Source of the DNA: Candidatus Nitrospira allomarina
GTDB taxonomy: Bacteria > Nitrospirota > Nitrospiria > Nitrospirales > UBA8639
Length of the DNA: 64,000 nucleotides
Direction: 5' to 3'
NCBI RefSeq assembly: GCF_032050975.1
Contig: NZ_CP116967.1
Coordinates: 2,229,001 to 2,293,000 of the forward strand
Part shown: positions 1 to 11,182 of the stretch, piece after piece
Position numbering within the stretch: the first letter of the stretch is position 1
How the letters are laid out: every line of letters starts with the position of its first letter
Program-made: the position numbers and the translations under genes
The notes under the pieces: model-generated
Databases searched by the model: none
What the model was told of the DNA's origin: nothing
What the model saw: only the letters and a program-made list of their open reading frames with translations

Positions 1-510
1 CCGGACATGCACCCTGTCACGCAAATGCTTCACGAGCTCTATGCCAATGTCGGGGATCTGTCCGATGATATCCGGCGTTTGGCCTACCAGTATCATCCGT
101 CGATCCTGGATGACCTTGGCTTGGGCTCGGCTCTTCGCTCGTTGTGCGAAGACTTTGAGAAGTGGGAAGGGATCTCGGTCACGTGTGAATTGGCTGATAG
201 AGCAGGAAGAATTTCACAAGCGGTGGGCACATGTCTGTACCGTGTGGCACAAGAGAGCCTGCGGAATGTGGTAAGACATGCTCAGGCTTCGGCAGTCCAT
301 CTCGTTTTACGGAATGAAGGACCGGACATTATTCTCTCAATTCACGACAATGGAAAAGGATTCGAGGTGGACGGGGTTCTTTCTCGAGGGTTGGGATTTG
401 TCAGCATGAGAGAGCGGGTTCGTCTGGTGGGTGGAACCCTGTTCGTGGAGAGTCAGCCTGGCTATGGAACAACTGTGAAGGTGTCAATTGCTGTAAACGC
501 TCAGTCGTGA
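1..510 (+). CDS. NarX/DegS-type sensor histidine kinase, C-terminal part
   Basis: This is the end of a sensor kinase cut by the left edge of the window; the frame is open to base 1. It shows the tail of a HisKA_3 dimerisation helix (LAYQYHPSILDDLGL) and then an HATPase_c domain with an N box (YRVAQESLRNVVRHA), a G1 box (DNGKGF) and a G2 box (GLGFVSMRERV). The phospho-accepting His must lie upstream of the window. The kinase is followed by two NarL-type response regulators on the same strand, so it is their likely partner. Its catalytic part closely resembles the complete kinase at 35570-37297. The signal it senses cannot be read from this fragment. Confidence 0.9.
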   Translation, partial: PDMHPVTQMLHELYANVGDLSDDIRRLAYQYHPSILDDLGLGSALRSLCEDFEKWEGISVTCELADRAGRISQAVGTCLYRVAQESLRNVVRHAQASAVHLVLRNEGPDIILSIHDNGKGFEVDGVLSRGLGFVSMRERVRLVGGTLFVESQPGYGTTVKVSIAVNAQS

Positions 511-802: not shown

Positions 803-1450
803 ATGGTGACACGACCCCGTATCCTATTAGCCGATGACCATGCATTGGTCCTGGAAGGCCTGGCCAAACTGGTCACTGAGGATTGCGACCTTGTCGGGAA
901 AGTGGAGGATGGACGAGCCCTTATCCAGGCCGCTCAGAAGTTGGAACCGGATGTCATCGTTTTAGACATTTCCATGCCAAAATTGAATGGATTGGATGCC
1001 GCCCGTCAACTGAAGAAATTACTTCCATCGATCAAGCTGATTTTTCTGACCATGCATGCGGATCCTCTATATGCAAAGGAAGCCTTTCAAATCGGGGCCT
1101 CCGGCTTTCTCTTAAAACGTTCTGCGGCTTCAGAGTTGATGCAAGCTATCAATGCCGTAATGAAAGGCCAGTACTACGTGACCCCGGCCATTGCCAAGGA
1201 TTTTCTGAGTACGTTCACTCAGGAAATGCCGGCTCCTCAAGATGAGGCAAGCTCTCTCACGCCTCGGCAGCGGGAAGTGCTGCAACTTATTGCCGAAGGC
1301 TACAGCACCAAAGAGATGGCGACAATTTTACACGTATCTCCCAAAACCATTGAATTTCATCGAGCCAAGATTTTTCGGGAATTAAACTGTCAAAGCACGG
1401 CGGAATTAACGAGATATGCCATTACCCATGGTCTCGTGTCTCCGGAATAG
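803..1450 (+). CDS. NarL/FixJ-family response regulator
   Basis: The 215-residue protein is a canonical two-domain transcription factor. The receiver domain (about 4-120) has the acidic pair D11-D12, the phospho-accepting D55 in VLDISMP, T83 and K105. A LuxR-type helix-turn-helix (about 148-210) follows, with LTPRQREVLQLIAEG and the recognition region TKEMATILHVSPKTIEFHRA. It lies downstream of the kinase fragment and upstream of a close paralogue, RR2, which points to one signalling locus with two outputs. Targets are not shown directly. The CTAGG palindromes found nearby are candidate binding sites for this protein or RR2. The ATG has only a weak AGG-type ribosome site. Confidence 0.92.
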   Translation: MVTRPRILLADDHALVLEGLAKLVTEDCDLVGKVEDGRALIQAAQKLEPDVIVLDISMPKLNGLDAARQLKKLLPSIKLIFLTMHADPLYAKEAFQIGASGFLLKRSAASELMQAINAVMKGQYYVTPAIAKDFLSTFTQEMPAPQDEASSLTPRQREVLQLIAEGYSTKEMATILHVSPKTIEFHRAKIFRELNCQSTAELTRYAITHGLVSPE

Positions 1451-1469: not shown

Positions 1470-1509
1470 ACTAGGAAAATTTCTCTCGAAAACTAGGGAT
1501 TTCCCTAGT
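1470..1509 (+). promoter_or_regulatory. CTAGG tandem palindrome element, copy A (before RR2)
   Basis: A CTAGG half-site begins at 1471, and exactly 22 bp later a palindrome of 18 bases reads ACTAGGGATTTCCCTAGT (1492-1509). An AT-rich stretch near 1528-1535 (TTTATATT) could be the -10 region, which would put the palindrome centre near -40. The spacing and palindrome recur at 2304-2343 and 6626-6665. It is probably an activator site for a dimeric LuxR-family regulator and may autoregulate RR2. Confidence 0.7.
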
Positions 1510-1578
1510 GGTGGTTTGCCCGTCCTTGTTTATATTACTTACCCCATTCAGACGGGGAACAATTTTTTGAAGGGTCAA

Positions 1579-2274
1579 GTGCCGGTGCCGGTCTCACATC
1601 CTTCTTATCCAAGCTCATGTGCCGGGAAATCCTCAAGGGACCTTCCCCGTATTATGTTGGCAGATGATCATCCCATGGTCTTAGAGGGGGTGGCAAAGCT
1701 TGTAGAGGATTTTGGCGTGGTCGTGGGGAAAGTGGAAGATGGACGATTACTGATTGAAGTCGCTTCACATTTGAACCCGGATGTGGTGATCATGGATATT
1801 TCAATGCCGAGTTTAAATGGGCTGGAATCGGCACGCCATCTCCAAAAACTTGTTCCCCGTAGTAAAATCATTTTTCTGACGATGCATGCGGATCCCGCTT
1901 ATATTACTGCGGCATTTGAGGCCGGAGCCTCCGGATATCTCATGAAACGGTCTGCCGGTTCAGAACTGCAGTTGGCGGTAAAGACGGTGTTGGCGGGCCG
2001 CCGGTATGTCACGCCTCTCGCCCTGCGGGGGGAGGTCTCGCTTAATGATTTCCTGGGAGGGGAAAAATCGTTGTTTAAGCTACTTATTCCTCGTCAGCGG
2101 GAAGTCTTGCAGTTGATCGCCGAAGGCCGTTCCACCAAAGCCATCGCTACCCTTCTCAATATTTCCACCAAAACGGTAGAATTTCATAAAGCCAAGGTCA
2201 TGGAAACTTTAGGGATGCATACGATTCCAGAGTTAACCCAGTTTGCGGTTGCTCAAGGCCTGGTTGAGAAGTAG
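1579..2274 (+). CDS. NarL/FixJ-family response regulator (RR2)
   Basis: This second NarL-type regulator is a close paralogue of the one at 803-1450. From the GTG at 1579, which has AAGGG just upstream, the protein has 231 residues. The receiver shows D29-D30 and the acceptor D73 in IMDISMP, a Thr in FLTMHAD, and a Lys in YLMKRSAG. The C-terminal LuxR helix-turn-helix contains PRQREVLQLIAEGRSTKAIA. The N-terminal 20 residues before the first strand are unusual, so a start at an upstream TTG (1516) or at ATG 1654 cannot be excluded; the last would remove the first strand. The CTAGG element lies 70 bp upstream of the GTG, so the gene may control its own expression. Confidence 0.88.
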   Translation: MPVPVSHPSYPSSCAGKSSRDLPRIMLADDHPMVLEGVAKLVEDFGVVVGKVEDGRLLIEVASHLNPDVVIMDISMPSLNGLESARHLQKLVPRSKIIFLTMHADPAYITAAFEAGASGYLMKRSAGSELQLAVKTVLAGRRYVTPLALRGEVSLNDFLGGEKSLFKLLIPRQREVLQLIAEGRSTKAIATLLNISTKTVEFHKAKVMETLGMHTIPELTQFAVAQGLVEK

Positions 2275-2303
2275 GCAATTCCGATCATCTCTCCGCACTT
2301 CAT

Positions 2304-2343
2304 CCTAGGATTATTTCCCGAAAGGACTAGGGGTTTCCCTAGT
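2304..2343 (+). promoter_or_regulatory. CTAGG tandem palindrome element, copy B (before the CBS-receiver gene)
   Basis: CTAGGA begins at 2305 and a palindrome, ACTAGGGGTTTCCCTAGT, occupies 2326-2343. The two CTAGG words are again 22 bp apart. A GTATTTTAC stretch near 2364-2373 is a plausible -10 region, placing the palindrome near -43. The layout matches copies A and C, and the next gene starts at 2452, leaving room for an untranslated leader. Confidence 0.7.
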
Positions 2344-2451
2344 TCTTTTTTTTAACGTCGATCGGTATTTTACACCCTCACTTTAGCCACAAATTCCCCC
2401 TTTACTTTGATGGTTTCATGGTTGAAACCCATGTGAAAGAGAGGCTCACGG

Positions 2452-3492
2452 ATGAACCACCTTTTTTCATCTTCTCCGTCGGCGGAAAATCTGATGAATA
2501 CCGCAGCCGTTCCTCTTCGACCCGGTCGTTTTGAGAAGGGTTTGGCTTTGCAATTTCTCTCCGGTCAATACAGCGGATGGCCGGTAGTCGATTCCACCAG
2601 AGAAATCCTGGGCGTCGTGACCGAACTTCGTCTGTTACAAGCCTGTTCCCGCGTGAATTCCCTGGATGAACTCATGGTCGAAGACACCATGTCTACGCCG
2701 GTATTTGTGTTTGAGCAGGATCCGCTCGATGTCGTGATGAAGTTGATGGTTCAAAGCCAGGTTTTGAGAATGCCGGTGGTTCGTGAGCGGCAGCTTGTCG
2801 GAGTCATTTCCCGGGGAGATGTCTTACGGTATAGCCTCCCGTTATCTTCGCCTGCCTCCCAATTCGTGTTTTCCTGTGGCTGGTGTGAACGGGTTTATGA
2901 TCCCTCTGAGAGGCTGATCGGAACAGATGACTGGCAAACCTTGGATGCCTATTTATCAAGCCATCAACTCACATTTTCGGATATCGAGCCGGCGCAAACC
3001 TATTGCCCTTCCTGTCTGGAAATTCTTCAGGCGCTTCAAACCACATCGCATGGCAGCTCGCGTGCCGGGACCGTTGTCCATCAGGAGGTCCGTCCCTGTT
3101 TGTTGGTGGTCGATGATGATCCATCCATAGCCGGGTTGTTGGTTCAAGCCCTTCAGGAGTGGGGCTATGAGGTGCTTGTTGCGAGAAATGGGCGGGAGGG
3201 CCTTGATCTGTTGGGCGGCCGTTGCGTGGATGGAATTTTACTGGATATGCACATGCCCATCATGGATGGGCGTACCATGTTGGATGAACTACGGTGGTTG
3301 GGACATCAGATGCCGGTGCTCATGATGTCGGGAGCGTCAGAGACATCCTTGCTCCGGCGGATGTTGCAGGAAGGTGCTCAAGGATTTTTCCTGAAACCGT
3401 TTCATCTCGCTTCCGTCCAACAGGCCTGTCGCAAGATTTTTCAAAACGATGAGGATAAGGCAGAGGTCTCCTCTCGTTTCCATGTGGCTTGA
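2452..3492 (+). CDS. Tandem CBS, cysteine-motif and receiver-domain fusion protein
   Basis: The 346-residue soluble protein joins three modules. Two CBS motifs (about 30-130; VVDSTREILGVVTE and MPVVRERQLVGVISRGD) probably bind an adenine nucleotide. A middle segment (about 138-195) carries C142-x2-C145 and C185-x2-C188 and resembles the CxxC...SHG..CPxC segment found in many bacterial signalling proteins; it probably binds zinc or another metal. The C-terminal receiver (about 214-335) has D221-D223 and the acceptor D265 in LLDMHMP. There is no DNA-binding output domain. Preceded by regulatory element B, it may join nucleotide sensing to phosphorelay input. The ATG at 2452 fits the family start; GAGAGG upstream can act as ribosome site. 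Confidence 0.87.
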   Translation: MNHLFSSSPSAENLMNTAAVPLRPGRFEKGLALQFLSGQYSGWPVVDSTREILGVVTELRLLQACSRVNSLDELMVEDTMSTPVFVFEQDPLDVVMKLMVQSQVLRMPVVRERQLVGVISRGDVLRYSLPLSSPASQFVFSCGWCERVYDPSERLIGTDDWQTLDAYLSSHQLTFSDIEPAQTYCPSCLEILQALQTTSHGSSRAGTVVHQEVRPCLLVVDDDPSIAGLLVQALQEWGYEVLVARNGREGLDLLGGRCVDGILLDMHMPIMDGRTMLDELRWLGHQMPVLMMSGASETSLLRRMLQEGAQGFFLKPFHLASVQQACRKIFQNDEDKAEVSSRFHVA

Positions 3493-3542
3493 TTGAAAAC
3501 AGGAATCCGGTTAGGGCTGATGGATTTTTATAGGGGGGAGCC

Positions 3543-3713
3543 ATGAATGAACATAGGGCCGGTCGTATAAATGGAACCCTTGGTAACGGGAGGAGAGAAG
3601 TCTGCGCCCATCAACGCCTGGTAGACGAACCGGTCAATGAGAAAGGCGCGAAAACGGGGCACCTGGTTTGTCGGGAATGTGGTGAGGTCATCCATAATCC
3701 TGTGAAAGTCTGA
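3543..3713 (+). CDS. Small putative zinc-ribbon protein (56 aa)
   Basis: This short gene has a strong ribosome site, GGGGGGAG, just before its ATG. The product has 56 residues. It is basic at the N-terminus, has a CAH motif near residue 21 and ends in LVCRECGEVIHNP, a CxxC knuckle. With only one clear CxxC pair it may use the upstream Cys/His or dimerise to hold a metal. It follows the CBS-receiver gene by 50 bp on the same strand and may be co-transcribed. I do not recognise a named family. Confidence 0.55.
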   Translation: MNEHRAGRINGTLGNGRREVCAHQRLVDEPVNEKGAKTGHLVCRECGEVIHNPVKV

Positions 3714-3985
3714 ATTCGATGGAGATGAATGCCATTCTCCGGGTCTTATTGAAAGAAGGTAAAAGGCCTGTGACGCTTCATGACGCTGATTGTGCCAGAG
3801 CAGAGTGCGTTGTGTGGCCGCGACAGACCACACGAGGGTTTGAACGATTTGTTATGTCTGTACCCATGAGTCTTCAATCCGGTTTGATCGTCGCAGAAAA
3901 GGGCGCGTCTCTATTCTGCTCATCTGTCTTGAGATGATGTCGAGGTATACTAATTTCAGGGCAATACAAGGCGGAGGTTGATTCA

Positions 3986-4231
3986 ATGAAAGATATTTCA
4001 TGCGAGTCCAACAAACAGGGAGAAATGCAAAGTCTGCCGGTTTCTGTCGATGTAACTCAGGATATGAGGCATGATGGTTCTTCCGATTCGCTGGAGATCA
4101 AGATTGACAATCTTGCCCATGAGATCTCCAGGCGGGGAGGTGAGCATAAAGGCCCAAGTTTAGCCAGTTGGTTGAAAGCCGCAAGGGAGATTCTGTCCGA
4201 GGATTCTGAACGGCCGCAATTAACTGCCTAA
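3986..4231 (+). CDS. Small DUF2934-like protein
   Basis: The 81-residue protein starts at an ATG with a good ribosome site (GGCGGAGG). Residues about 42-75 (LAHEISRRGGEHKG, then SLASWLKAAREIL) match the pattern of the short DUF2934 helix pair, whose consensus runs IA..AYELWEARG...G.DLEDWLQAERE. The N-terminal 40 residues are polar and look unstructured. No enzymatic motif is present. Related segments occur in the proteins at 7871-8119 and 16315-16878, so this genome uses the module repeatedly. The function of DUF2934 is unknown to me. Confidence 0.6.
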   Translation: MKDISCESNKQGEMQSLPVSVDVTQDMRHDGSSDSLEIKIDNLAHEISRRGGEHKGPSLASWLKAAREILSEDSERPQLTA

Positions 4232-4402
4232 AGCCTGTTTGCTTGGTTCGAGAGTTTTAATCGGGTCCTTATTTCCACGCCGGAATTCTGACTATTCAAA
4301 ATGTTTTCTATCTTCTGAAGCTGAGTTTCTGTTGGTGACGGCGGGGATGACTACGGGGGACGGATAGACTCGGTATTTTTGATTCGGACTTCCATCAGAA
4401 AC

Positions 4403-4443
4403 CTAGGAGAATTATCTTGGTTTTTAGAAAAATACTCAGTATT
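4403..4443 (+). promoter_or_regulatory. Degenerate CTAGG element, copy D (before guanylyltransferase 1)
   Basis: CTAGGA begins at 4403. About 21 bp later TTTAGAAAAATACTCAGT (4423-4440) matches copy C of the palindrome at 12 of 18 positions. It contains its own perfect 13-bp palindrome, AATACTCAGTATT (4431-4443). Downstream, TTTATAAAGGACC (4455-4467) closely resembles TTTATAAGGACC after copy C, before the paralogous gene. This supports a shared promoter design, though this copy has diverged. Confidence 0.5.
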
Positions 4444-4527
4444 CGTCTTACTACTTTATAAAGGACCGAGTAGCTATATTCATAGCTTTCATACAATTTT
4501 TTCGTGCAAAGGAAGGAGCTCCGCCCT

Positions 4528-5505
4528 ATGTCTCAATCCCATGCCTTATGGTCCGTGATTCTCGCCGGTGGGAAGGGGGAACGAACGCGTCCGTTTATTG
4601 AACGATGGTTAGGCTATCCCAAACCCAAACAGTACTGTGCATTCGTGGGAAACCGGTCGATGCTGCAACACACCTTAGACCGTGCGGATCGCCTTGGGGC
4701 TCCTCATAAAAAAATCACGGTGGTGGCCCAAACCCATCAAGGGTTCGCGGGTGAGGCCTTAGGAGGTCAGCGGGCAGGACAAGTGATTCTTGAACCGAAC
4801 TATTGCGGCACCGCCTCCGGGATGTTTCTCCCTCTCACCTATGTCCGGGCATGGGATCCTAGTGCCACAGTGGTCATTTTTCCTTCTGACCATTTTGTGT
4901 TTCCGGAAAATCGTTTTCTTGAATTGGTTCGGCGTGCCATAAGCGGGAGTCGTATTCTTCAGGATCGACTCCTGTTGTTGGGGGTACGTCCCACTCATCT
5001 TGAATTGGACTATGGCTGGATGAATGTGGGGGGGGTATTGGGCTGGAGTGGAGGATCGTGTATTCGGCAAGTCGATTCATTTGTTGAGCAACTGGACCAC
5101 ATTCAGGCCCTCAATGCCATGGCCAAAGGAGCACTCTGGAACACATCGGTAATCGTTGGCAAAGTTTCAACCATCTGGAGGCTTGGATGGCAATTCGTTC
5201 CTGCCATCATGGAACGGTTTGAGCGATTAGGAAAAGCCATCGGGAGCACTCATGAGGGTCGCATGCTTCGTCAGTTATATCAGAAAATGCCCATATTAGA
5301 TGTGTCTACCGAATTTCTCCAGCGCGTTCCTGAGCGCCTGGGAATGATTGAGCTGGAAGACGTGCTTTGGAGTGATTGGGAAGGCTCAGACCGTATTCGT
5401 CACACACTGAATGTAATTGGAAAGGAACCTGCGTTCCCCTCTGAGCTTGTCACCATGCCCTGTTCCTCATCTCATGCACTCTCCTTCCTTGAAGTGACCC
5501 GGTGA
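4528..5505 (+). CDS. Mannose-1-phosphate guanylyltransferase-like nucleotidyltransferase 1
   Basis: The 325-residue enzyme belongs to the NTP_transferase superfamily and most resembles GDP-mannose pyrophosphorylases. Those use mannose-1-phosphate and GTP to make GDP-mannose for polysaccharides. The pyrophosphorylase signature VILAGGKGERTRPFI is at residues 10-24, followed by PKPKQYCAF, LEPNYCGTASG and the metal-site region IFPSDHFVFP. The usual C-terminal isomerase or hexapeptide domain is missing. The ATG at 4528 has AAGGAG 11 bp upstream; a GTG at 4504 is an alternative. The paralogue at 6764-7744 is about the same length. Sugar specificity is inferred. Confidence 0.8.
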   Translation: MSQSHALWSVILAGGKGERTRPFIERWLGYPKPKQYCAFVGNRSMLQHTLDRADRLGAPHKKITVVAQTHQGFAGEALGGQRAGQVILEPNYCGTASGMFLPLTYVRAWDPSATVVIFPSDHFVFPENRFLELVRRAISGSRILQDRLLLLGVRPTHLELDYGWMNVGGVLGWSGGSCIRQVDSFVEQLDHIQALNAMAKGALWNTSVIVGKVSTIWRLGWQFVPAIMERFERLGKAIGSTHEGRMLRQLYQKMPILDVSTEFLQRVPERLGMIELEDVLWSDWEGSDRIRHTLNVIGKEPAFPSELVTMPCSSSHALSFLEVTR

Positions 5506-6145
5506 GTCGTAAACGCGTATTAGCAATAAGCAACCCCAAGAACCGGAAGAACAGCCTGGCGCAACTCGGCAAGGCAGGAGATTGTCGGGTAGGCCACCAC
5601 GAGCGAAGTCTGGAACAGCCATACTTGCTGCCTCATCCCGCGAAGGACGGCGGAGATCTGTCCTCAATGAAAACCGCAGGGGTTTCCGAGGCATACGGTT
5701 AGAAATGACTTCGATGGGACTCAGTTGTCGATACACGATATCAATTGTGCCGACTCTGCTCGGGTACCCTCCCGCCCAATCCTGAAAGGAAATCATCTTG
5801 GAATGACCCAATTCCGTCTTGGTTCCTCATAATAAATCTTGGGAATGACCCATGGGGCTGATTCCCCGTTTTTCTCCCTTAGTTGTTGCAATCTTCAACA
5901 GTTCCCCATTAAACCCTGTAGCTTTTTTGGCCAAGAGACCTTTCCCGGCCTAGTCCTTTTCCTCAGAACCCATTGCGAACAGAGAGAATTGGTTCGAGGC
6001 CCTCTCCTGGCATAACCCTCGCTAAAGAAAAAATAGCGGGTCCCTACCTTCAGTGGCAGGTGAGCCATTTACCGGGGTGCTTCCGTGGAAGGTACGACGT
6101 GAGGCCCGGTCACAAATTAGTGTCTCGGGGGTGAAAGATAAAGGT
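5506..6145 (+). other. Intergenic stretch without a convincing gene
   Basis: About 640 bases lie between guanylyltransferase 1 and the SpoIIAA-like gene. Short frames exist on both strands but none has a ribosome site with a recognisable protein. Two imperfect direct copies of CTTGG(G)AATGACCCA lie near 5799 and 5836. The promoter of the next gene probably lies near the 3' end. Confidence 0.5.
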
Positions 6146-6502
6146 ATGTATCGGATTTTAGATGAAAGTGAAGCCGGAAGTGTGGGAATTCGGGTTGAGG
6201 GGAAATTATCAGTCGAAGAGTATGATCTCTTGAATGCCTACCTGGAACAGTTAATGCAAGAAGTTGGGCCGATTAATTTCTTGTGCGATTTGGCAACCCT
6301 TGAAGGCGAAAATGGGCAAGCCTTATGGGAGGAGATGACTGATCATCTGCGGAACGCCCAAGCATATCAACGAATTGCGGTGGTGGGAAACCGACGATGG
6401 TCGGAGGGCGGACCAAAGGTTTCTGTTCCCTGGCCCAGTACTCAGTTCAAATATTTCACACCAGACCAGACCGACGAGGCCTGGCATTGGGTAAAGGGGT
6501 GA
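6146..6502 (+). CDS. SpoIIAA-like (STAS-related) protein
   Basis: The 118-residue product begins MYRILDESEAGSVGIRVEGK, the usual start of SpoIIAA-like proteins (PF11964). These have an STAS-like fold and are thought to act in signalling or lipid-related binding. The middle (PINFLCDLATLEGE) and the segment AYQRIAVVGNRRWSEGG also fit that family. I placed the start at ATG 6146 because homology begins there. A GTG at 6131 and an ATG at 6053 are in frame upstream, and the ribosome site is not clear. It sits between two sugar-nucleotide transferase genes but has no obvious link to them. Confidence 0.68.
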   Translation: MYRILDESEAGSVGIRVEGKLSVEEYDLLNAYLEQLMQEVGPINFLCDLATLEGENGQALWEEMTDHLRNAQAYQRIAVVGNRRWSEGGPKVSVPWPSTQFKYFTPDQTDEAWHWVKG

Positions 6503-6625
6503 GATGCTCAAAACCATGGCCATGGATTCCGTAGAGAAAGCGTGGCCGTGAAAAAATGTGGCGTTCGTGGGTGAACGGCTGTTTGAGTTGAAATTTTGAT
6601 CAGGTATTCTCGATTCTTAATATCT

Positions 6626-6665
6626 CCTAGGGACTTTTTCCTGATTGACTAGGGAAATTCCTAGT
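6626..6665 (+). promoter_or_regulatory. CTAGG tandem palindrome element, copy C (before guanylyltransferase 2)
   Basis: CTAGGG begins at 6627 and the palindrome ACTAGGGAAATTCCTAGT lies at 6648-6665. The CTAGG spacing is again 22 bp. TTTATAAGGACC at 6686-6697 may hold the -10 region, putting the palindrome centre near -41, the classical position for an activator touching RNA polymerase. This copy drives the paralogue of the gene behind copy D. Confidence 0.7.
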
Positions 6666-6763
6666 TCCTTCCTTGGGGGGAATGTTTTATAAGGACCTTT
6701 TTAAAGTGGGGATATCCGTCATTGTGCTTTGGCATTCATGACCCAGGGAGGGAGATGAAGAAC

Positions 6764-7744
6764 ATGCTGAGAGCCGGAGCCAATCCGTTGTGGTCGATTA
6801 TTTTAGCTGGGGGTGAAGGGGAAAGGACCCGCCCGTTTATCGAACAGTGGTTGGGCGGGCATAAACCCAAGCAGTATTGTACCTTTGTCGGAAATCGATC
6901 CATGCTTCAACATACGCTGGATCGGGCCGACCGATTGGTCAGACCTGAACACAAAGTCACGGTGATCGGTCGAAACCATCGGGAGTTTTTGAATAACGCT
7001 GTGGAGGGAGATACCTCTGGACACGTTATTGTTCAGCCCCAGAATTGCGGAACAGCCGCAGGAGTGTTCCTTCCACTGACCTTTGTTCGAGCCTGGGATG
7101 CTGACGCTACAGTCGTCATTTTCCCATCCGATCATTTTGTCTTTCCGGAAGCTCGTTTTCTCGAAACGATCAGGCGGGGGATTCGCGCAAATCACTTTCT
7201 CCAGGATCGTTTGGTCCTGTTTGGCGTGTCTCCTTCACATCCTGAGCTGGACTATGGGTGGATTAACCTGGGCGAAGTTCTGGGTTGGAGCAATGGATCA
7301 TGTATTCGCCAGGTTGGTTCCTTTCTTGAAAAACCAGACCTTCTTGAAGGGCAACAGGTCATGGCAAGCGGCGCTCTTTGGAACACCCTGGTGATTGTGG
7401 CAAAAGTGGCCACGCTCTGGAAACTTGGTTGGCAACACCTACCGGTTATGATGGAGCGGTTTGAACGGTTAGGCGCGACGATTGGAACTGTGCACGAACA
7501 TGAAACGCTTCACGACATCTATCGAGATATGCCTGTTCTGGACTTTTCTCGTGCATTGCTTCAAAGGATTCCTGAGCATCTGGGAGTGATGGAATTCGAG
7601 GAAGTGCTGTGGAGTGATTGGGGACAACCCGAACGCATTGCCCATACACTCAACACTCTTGGGAAAAAACCTGCATTTCCTTCCGAAATTTTGCAAAGGT
7701 CCTTGGCTCCCACCGATGCCATTCCTCACCTGGGGGTGACGTGA
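6764..7744 (+). CDS. Mannose-1-phosphate guanylyltransferase-like nucleotidyltransferase 2
   Basis: The 326-residue protein is a close paralogue of the one at 4528-5505. It shares the signature IILAGGEGERTRPFIEQWLG, PKQYCTFVGNRSMLQHT, VQPQNCGTAAG and IFPSDHFVFPEARF, and ends in a similar short tail. It should also transfer a nucleotide to a sugar phosphate. I chose ATG 6764 because GGGAGGG lies about 11 bp upstream, as in the paralogue; ATG 6755 and TTG 6722 are alternatives. A broken third copy lies at about 14208-14453. Two kept copies with the same upstream element suggest one regulated function, possibly stress-induced polysaccharide or glycoconjugate synthesis. Confidence 0.8.
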   Translation: MLRAGANPLWSIILAGGEGERTRPFIEQWLGGHKPKQYCTFVGNRSMLQHTLDRADRLVRPEHKVTVIGRNHREFLNNAVEGDTSGHVIVQPQNCGTAAGVFLPLTFVRAWDADATVVIFPSDHFVFPEARFLETIRRGIRANHFLQDRLVLFGVSPSHPELDYGWINLGEVLGWSNGSCIRQVGSFLEKPDLLEGQQVMASGALWNTLVIVAKVATLWKLGWQHLPVMMERFERLGATIGTVHEHETLHDIYRDMPVLDFSRALLQRIPEHLGVMEFEEVLWSDWGQPERIAHTLNTLGKKPAFPSEILQRSLAPTDAIPHLGVT

Positions 7745-10240: not shown

Positions 10241-11182
10241 ATGATGAAAGTGTTGTTGGCGGTAGAGCAAACTCGTATTTCTGAAGGGGCCATTCAGATT
10301 CTCAGCAGGTTGACACTGCCCGGTGGATCCGATCTGTTTCTTCTCCATGTGAACCCCGTCCCTCAAAAGATTACGGGTCTGGCGAAGGAACGGATTTTGA
10401 AAATCTCCCAGCAGGTACAAGAGGTGCAAAAGCAGGCGCTTGAACAGGCGCGTGAGTTTCTGGGTAAGGTCGAAAAAAGGCTGAATCATCAGGATGTGGA
10501 TGTGTGTTCTCTTGTAAAAAAGGGCTTTCCTGGAGAGGAAATTTTAAAAACCATTCACGCGAAAGCCGTCGATCTGGTGGTTCTCGGATCACGTGGTTAT
10601 TCCAAAACGAAGGGGATTTTACTCGGGAGTGTGAGTCAATGGGTGTTACAGGAAGCGCCCTGCTCGGTGTTGATCGCTCGGCCTATGGCTCGGTTGAAAA
10701 AGCCTGTTCGAGGCATGAAACTTCTCCTGGCTACTGATGGATCTGCCGATTCACGAGCGGCCGTCGACTTTATTAAAAGCCTGACTTTACCCCCTTCCTC
10801 ACATATCACCATTCTCCATGTCGTCAAAAAACATGTGTTCGAAACCGAACAAACGTTGATTGCCGACAGTAAGAAGGAGGATGAATTTGCCAAATTGGCC
10901 GAAGAACTCCTTGCCATCCGAGGGCGGGAAGGAGCGAAACTCCTTGAACAGACTCGAAAGGTCTTGAGTGCTCCTGAACTTCACATTCAAGAGCGATTGG
11001 TATTTGGCAATCCAGGAGATGAAATTCTTAAAGCTGTTCGATATGTTCAAGCTGATCTTGTTGTCCTGGGTTCCCGTGGCTCGACCGGGGTCAAGCGGGC
11101 GTTTCTTGGCAGTGTATCGAACAAGGCTGTTTACGGTGCCGGATGTTCGGTGGCGGTCATTCGTCATAAATACAAAGAGTAG
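10241..11182 (+). CDS. Tandem universal stress protein (two UspA domains)
   Basis: The 313-residue cytoplasmic protein has two UspA folds (about 1-145 and 158-310). Each ends with the ATP-binding signature G-x2-G-x9-G-S: GSRGYSKTKGILLGSVS in the first and GSRGSTGVKRAFLGSVSN in the second. Both halves also keep the first-strand Asp/Glu region (LLAVEQTRIS; LLATDGSADS). Such proteins bind ATP and help survival under energy, oxygen or stationary-phase stress. An AAAGGAG ribosome site lies just before the ATG. A second tandem Usp is at 18593-19543. A remnant of an acyl-CoA synthetase follows. Confidence 0.9.
   Translation: MMKVLLAVEQTRISEGAIQILSRLTLPGGSDLFLLHVNPVPQKITGLAKERILKISQQVQEVQKQALEQAREFLGKVEKRLNHQDVDVCSLVKKGFPGEEILKTIHAKAVDLVVLGSRGYSKTKGILLGSVSQWVLQEAPCSVLIARPMARLKKPVRGMKLLLATDGSADSRAAVDFIKSLTLPPSSHITILHVVKKHVFETEQTLIADSKKEDEFAKLAEELLAIRGREGAKLLEQTRKVLSAPELHIQERLVFGNPGDEILKAVRYVQADLVVLGSRGSTGVKRAFLGSVSNKAVYGAGCSVAVIRHKYKE

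Follow-up and report, generated by a model that had tools for sequence, protein, structure and literature searches.

What is the function of a composite sequence element that stands three times between genes near one end of a 64,000-nucleotide stretch of the Candidatus Nitrospira allomarina chromosome (contig NZ_CP116967.1, positions 2,229,001 to 2,293,000; hereafter the window)? Each copy consists of a CTAGG half-site followed by a T-tract (unit 1) and, 22 bp on, the palindrome ACTAGGG-N4-CCCTAGT (unit 2). Comparison of sequences makes it very probable that the element serves as operator for a small two-component regulon that reinforces itself; the element would be bound by the NarL/LuxR-family response regulators encoded beside it (RR1 and RR2), which would activate transcription from a class II position. 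The control of gene expression in Nitrospira-type nitrite oxidisers is, to our knowledge, poorly characterised, and our literature search brought up no paper describing a regulon or motif of this sort in Nitrospira. It is a real, conserved operator with a small regulon, undescribed although of a known kind.

Copies of the element in the window and the genome

The complete 4.55-Mb genome that contains the window was searched with the pattern CTAGG-N17-CTAGGG-N4-CCCTAG and with a sequence model of the element (R1) built from 30 sites. The copies in the window and the genes around them are as follows.

803-1450, plus strand: RR1, NarL/LuxR-family response regulator, receiver and GerE helix-turn-helix (HTH) domains (Pfam Response_reg 4e-27, GerE 5e-19)
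1471-1484, plus strand: copy 1, unit 1, CTAGG half-site and T-tract CTAGGAAAATTTCT (sequence)
1492-1509, plus strand: copy 1, unit 2, palindrome ACTAGGGATTTCCCTAGT, exact fit to CTVGGGAWWTCCCBAG (pattern search; PMC9774167)
1579-2274, plus strand: RR2, second NarL/LuxR-family response regulator (Pfam); GTG at 1579 after GAAGGG is the probable start
2305-2318, plus strand: copy 2, unit 1, CTAGG half-site and T-tract CTAGGATTATTTCC (sequence)
2326-2343, plus strand: copy 2, unit 2, palindrome ACTAGGGGTTTCCCTAGT (pattern search)
2452-3492, plus strand: CBS-receiver target, with CBS domain, Cys-rich module (CxxC...YCPxC) and receiver (Pfam CBS 3e-15, Response_reg 2e-24)
6627-6641, plus strand: copy 3, unit 1, CTAGG half-site and T-tract CTAGGGACTTTTTCC (sequence)
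6648-6665, plus strand: copy 3, unit 2, palindrome ACTAGGGAAATTCCTAGT, symmetrical except at one point (pattern search)
6752-7744, plus strand: sugar-1-phosphate nucleotidyltransferase target (Pfam 5e-18)

Copies 1 (1471-1508) and 2 (2305-2342) match the search pattern without a mismatch, and copy 3 (6627-6664) has a single mismatch, TCCTAG in place of CCCTAG; all three are on the plus strand, and the step from CTAGG to CTAGG is exactly 22 bp in each. When up to three mismatches were allowed, the window held four matches, one of which is copy 2 read on the opposite strand, against 0.09 expected from shuffling, and none of the shuffles reached four. The copies are intergenic, lying between RR1 and RR2, between RR2 and the CBS-receiver gene, and in front of the nucleotidyltransferase gene. 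The earlier note on this DNA had placed three equally spaced copies at these positions, outside coding sequence and before these three kinds of gene, and all of this was borne out; in addition, the palindrome of copy 3 proved imperfect.

The genome scan that the note had proposed detected four sites at no more than one mismatch, namely copies 1 to 3 and a fourth at 459185-459222 on the minus strand, 1.8 Mb from the others, and every one of them is upstream of a gene. R1 recovered the same four at E values of 3e-13 to 2e-9, with no further match in the genome at E<=10 except the reverse strands of these sites; the regulon is very small. At up to two mismatches the bare palindrome has fewer matches than its reversed control (56 against 250; CTAG is rare), so that intact sites stand out.

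In related genomes the element was found 20-90 bp before genes for an RR2-type regulator, a CBS-receiver or receiver protein, a sugar nucleotidyltransferase and a PAS protein, and within the genus the positive genomes have 1-5 forward pattern matches, compared with 0-1 for the reversed control. Orthologues of the nucleotidyltransferase and of the PAS protein mostly have a site of 43-56 bits (23 in one case) 50-90 bp upstream. In front of their paralogues the scores stay under 3 or are negative, the one exception, at 12 bits, being the site of a neighbouring gene. The relatives of these two proteins in genomes lacking the response regulator are paralogue-like, and such relatives are without a site in genomes that have the regulator too. 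Thus neither scattered or intragenic copies nor an absence of the motif before orthologues, the outcomes that the note had named as contrary to its proposal, was observed.

Position of the element in the predicted promoters

Aligned sites read CTAGGGA-n-TTTTTC, a spacer, ACTAGGG-ATTT-CCCTAGT, and then a TATWWT-like hexamer. The hexamers in the window, identified from the sequence and a positional peak, are the following.

1531-1536, plus strand: -10-like hexamer TATATT of the RR2 promoter, starting 22 bp past the end of the palindrome
2366-2371, plus strand: -10-like hexamer TATTTT of the CBS-receiver gene promoter, 23 bp after the palindrome end
6688-6693, plus strand: -10-like hexamer TATAAG behind copy 3, 23 bp past the end of its palindrome

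A TANNNT sequence begins 22-23 bp past the palindrome in 34 of 68 sites, compared with 0-7 at other offsets, in a set of sites picked in part with a matrix that included the -10 columns; the four sites of this genome and those first found by pattern were picked without that matrix. Given this peak, the palindrome would lie at about -52 to -35, with its centre near -43.5, which is the position of a class II activator. The features of class II promoters were all found, with an operator centred near -41 to -44 of the predicted start, a -10 and no good -35: the -10 hexamer is conserved and no consistent -35 was seen in the element promoters. A scan for sigma-70 -35/-10 pairs returned nothing above shuffles and did not list the element promoters, as expected from their lack of a -35.

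The T-tract of unit 1, which the earlier note had not mentioned, separates the half-site from the palindrome and equals the half-site in conservation (over 68 sites, T reaches 0.97 at the best column, and G 0.91 in the half-site). Where the half-site is degraded, four or five T residues are retained in 7 of 7 sites, some of them selected by a matrix that included those columns. Because the T-tract is conserved like the half-site and kept when the latter is degraded, unit 1 is not simply a worn second palindrome. The note's proposal that two sites share one helical face is unproven, since the upstream unit is a half-site with a T-tract and has no second palindrome. The partner contacting unit 1 is possibly a second dimer, a monomer or the C-terminal domain of the RNA polymerase alpha subunit (alpha-CTD).

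An operator at about -43 is able to repress as well as to activate, and a repressor could act there. The same regulator would then repress, its dimer overlapping the -35 region and blocking RNA polymerase, and the site carried by RR2 would resemble negative feedback. However, a conserved -10 in the absence of a -35 is as seen in activator-dependent promoters, and unit 1 with its T-tract is nearly as conserved as the palindrome and fixed in spacing, which favours activation; we consider repression unlikely.

Candidate regulators and the hairpin of copy 2

If the element is an activator site, which protein binds it? The gene upstream of RR1 encodes a histidine kinase.

1-510, plus strand: C-terminal part of a histidine kinase (937 aa when read from its longest start, beginning upstream of the window; Pfam)

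Pfam detects four PAS stretches, HisKA_3 (3e-12) and HATPase_c (3e-11) in the kinase, which is the likely partner of RR1. As in a two-component system, a regulator with receiver and GerE domains follows directly on a HisKA_3 kinase, an adjacency seen order-wide, and a palindromic operator is linked to the regulator gene and the targets. RR1 has no upstream element and RR2 has one. The recognition-helix pattern S.KT[VI]EFH[KR] is common to RR1, RR2 and their orthologues across the order. The GTG at 1579 is a likelier start for RR2 than the TTG at 1516 chosen by the open reading frame caller, because the latter precedes the predicted transcription start; the choice is also backed by the position of the -10, the Shine-Dalgarno-like GAAGGG and the open reading frame starts in relatives.

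Within the genus, R1 gave a match at E<1e-5 in 15 of 15 genomes that encode an RR1 relative and in 1 of the 6 lacking one (Fisher p=3e-4, and 2.5e-6 for 30 genomes of the family, both values ignoring kinship). RR1 orthologues are present in families f1 to f4. At 19 loci of RR1 orthologues in other genera and families we counted 18 palindromes of at least 11/14 on the strand of the regulator, against 1.35 expected, and all 18 fall downstream of RR1. The kinase adjoins RR1 in nearly all loci examined across the order Nitrospirales, a group of nitrite-oxidiser-like bacteria, and the site then follows directly in most. Among the genes behind the site in other families are those for a small CxxC...YCPxC protein, for zinc-ribbon and receiver proteins and for a small protein resembling a winged helix; the other-family sites at L194-L196 show no clear unit 1. 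Since the kinase, RR1 and the site are linked and the element co-occurs with RR1, RR1 is the likely binder of the element, probably together with RR2, and the best candidate for the DNA-binding activator. The note's suggestion of a dimeric LuxR/NarL-type activator with a small regulon, for which the adjacent response regulators are the first candidates, is therefore supported by comparative genomics, the grounds being the order-wide linkage of kinase and RR1, the co-occurrence, the same targets in relatives and the class II spacing of the -10.

Besides the partial circularity of the -10 count and the possible repressor at -43, three observations weigh against this reading. One genome (G012, assembly 81% complete) has a site at E 3.5e-6 with no RR1 detected, another (G025) has RR1 yet only a weak site, at the expected place, and many LuxR-type regulators are encoded in these genomes, so that another of them could bind the element. 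One could envisage a PAS-LuxR-like or orphan HTH protein encoded elsewhere as the binder, with RR1 and RR2 as mere neighbours and targets, given that the four sites of this genome are within one mismatch of CTVGGGAWWTCCCBAG, the PAS-LuxR operator (PMC9774167). Yet the site stays directly downstream of the kinase-RR1 pair in other families despite differing target genes, it co-occurs with RR1, and RR1 and RR2 combine GerE with a receiver and not with PAS. We therefore think such a binder improbable, and retain RR1 as the candidate.

Copy 2 has a further property, which is also new relative to the earlier note: it doubles as a conserved hairpin resembling an intrinsic terminator.

2320-2353, plus strand: terminator-like hairpin spanning copy 2, extended to 13 bp and with a T run (RNA fold -18.3 kcal/mol, z -3.9)

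In 7 of 11 sites of the CBS-receiver class the stem is lengthened outward by 6-7 bp and a T run is present, and the copy 2 hairpin may end the RR2 transcript. These properties would fit the elements being transcript ends, with palindromes alike solely as intrinsic terminators, but the other classes of sites mostly have a 0-3 bp extension and no T run, many shuffled sequences fold as well as copies 1 and 3 do (z -1.5 and +0.4), and the fixed spacing of unit 1 and of the -10 is left unexplained. A terminator-only reading, which holds for the CBS-receiver class alone, was rejected as very improbable. Chance resemblance, a dispersed repeat or a mobile element, as three copies within 5.2 kb might suggest, can be dismissed almost entirely in view of the shuffles, the reversed-pattern control, the distance of the fourth copy, and a conservation that is confined to the site and found at orthologous genes across genera.

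Predicted targets, proposed circuit and known systems

According to the proposed circuit, the PAS-repeat HisKA_3 kinase would phosphorylate RR1, and phosphorylated RR1, later RR2, would bind ACTAGGG-N4-CCCTAGT as a dimer at about -52 to -35 and contact RNA polymerase from the class II position at promoters that have a -10 and no consistent -35. Unit 1 (CTAGGGA and T-tract, 22 bp away, at about -73 to -60) would provide a second contact, with another regulator dimer, a monomer, or alpha-CTD at a site in the T-tract. The predicted targets are RR2 (positive feedback), the CBS-receiver protein, the sugar nucleotidyltransferase and an operon for a PAS protein and a CPBP membrane protease; RR1 would thus be the constant regulator and RR2 the induced second one. 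More speculatively, the operator may be composite, with a dimer on the palindrome, a 22-bp-phased half-site and T-tract recruiting a second regulator or alpha-CTD, and the palindrome of copy 2 coupling occupancy to termination of RR2. We rate this as possible rather than probable; a composite operator of this kind, if true, would be new to description. The analysis provides an operator at base level, a likely regulator and kinase, four target genes or operons in one complete genome and order-wide conservation, and with these parts defined the circuit is open to experiment, either in vitro or by transfer to a surrogate host.

The nucleotidyltransferase resembles mannose-1-phosphate guanylyltransferase (TIGR01479, 98 bits, below the cut-off of 373), and behind the fourth copy are two genes, one for a PAS protein (162 aa) and the other for a membrane protein of CPBP type (217 aa). 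The Cys-rich module of the CBS-receiver protein (CGWC...YCPSC, window 2850-3030) lies between its CBS and receiver domains, and in other families this module stands alone as the small protein behind the site. A former target is also present in the window.

4403-4440, plus strand: decayed copy of the element (CTAGG...TTAGAAAAATACTCAGT) before a paralogous nucleotidyltransferase (sequence)
4531-5505, plus strand: nucleotidyltransferase paralogue a, former target in this lineage (Pfam NTP_transferase 3e-13)

The site of paralogue a is decayed also in G011 and intact in G018, G019 and G020; by locus, it is decayed in L255 and intact in L233, L236 and L238. On the minus strand some 3.0-3.5 kb before the window (L010 6476-6990), what is left of an element (ACCAG...TTTTTCC...CCTAGG) precedes a superoxide-dismutase-like gene that is broken; G011 (L157 1993-) has a recognisable site and an open reading frame there. 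In two genomes of another family (L023, L024), a site with two near-equal CTAGGGAGAT units stands before an outer-membrane-porin-like gene. Two further features of the window are a small zinc-ribbon reading frame (CAHQRLVDEP...CRECGEV, window 3543-3713), with a similar small protein near the RR1 locus of another family (L222), and a tandem universal stress protein gene (window 10241-11182), upstream of which the model found no element.

Among known systems, NarX/NarL, FixL/FixJ, DevR (DosR) and RcsB share the receiver and GerE architecture of the regulator, and the kinase is NarX-like in its HisKA_3 domain; the published operators of regulators of the NarL, FixJ, DevR and RcsB type differ in sequence from the element. 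The nearest solved structures to the response regulator are VraR, DesR, NarL, EvgA, RcsB and DevR. No NCBIfam equivalog cut-off was reached, MctR being the best of these models. RR1 scores 175 bits against a cut-off of 300 and the kinase 147 against 700, and identity with MctS/MctR was rejected. The RpuS/R paper gives no inverted-repeat site.

The available part of the report on Pseudomonas fluorescens CrbS/CrbR describes an inverted repeat (ACTU motif) at -52 to -36, from which CrbR, a LuxR-family response regulator, activates beside a sigma-70-type promoter; there the operator is of the TACTACCATCGTCGAAT type, the targets serve acetate use, and that part reports no 22-bp upstream unit (PMC5715377). 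The operator CTVGGGAWWTCCCBAG of PimM and its PAS-LuxR relatives in Streptomyces polyene clusters lies in the -35 region (PMC9774167). Activation from such a position by LuxR-type HTH proteins therefore has precedent. The earlier note had recognised no known site in the element, but the palindrome fits the PAS-LuxR operator (PMC9774167): the two share the same 16-bp palindrome, to which copy 1 is exact and copies 2-4 have one mismatch, and at up to one mismatch the operator occurs at six places in the genome, four of them the element sites, compared with one for a control pattern. PimM-type activators have a GerE/LuxR-type HTH, as does the candidate binder here. PAS-LuxR proteins, however, are single-component regulators of secondary metabolism, whereas our candidate is a receiver-domain protein paired with a kinase, its predicted targets are signalling and sugar-nucleotide genes, and a half-site/T-tract unit stands 22 bp upstream of the palindrome; Pfam found a receiver and no PAS in RR1 and RR2. 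The likeness is therefore one of operator sequence and not of family membership, and a PimM-type palindrome would be used in a distant phylum by a response regulator that is probably phosphorylated.

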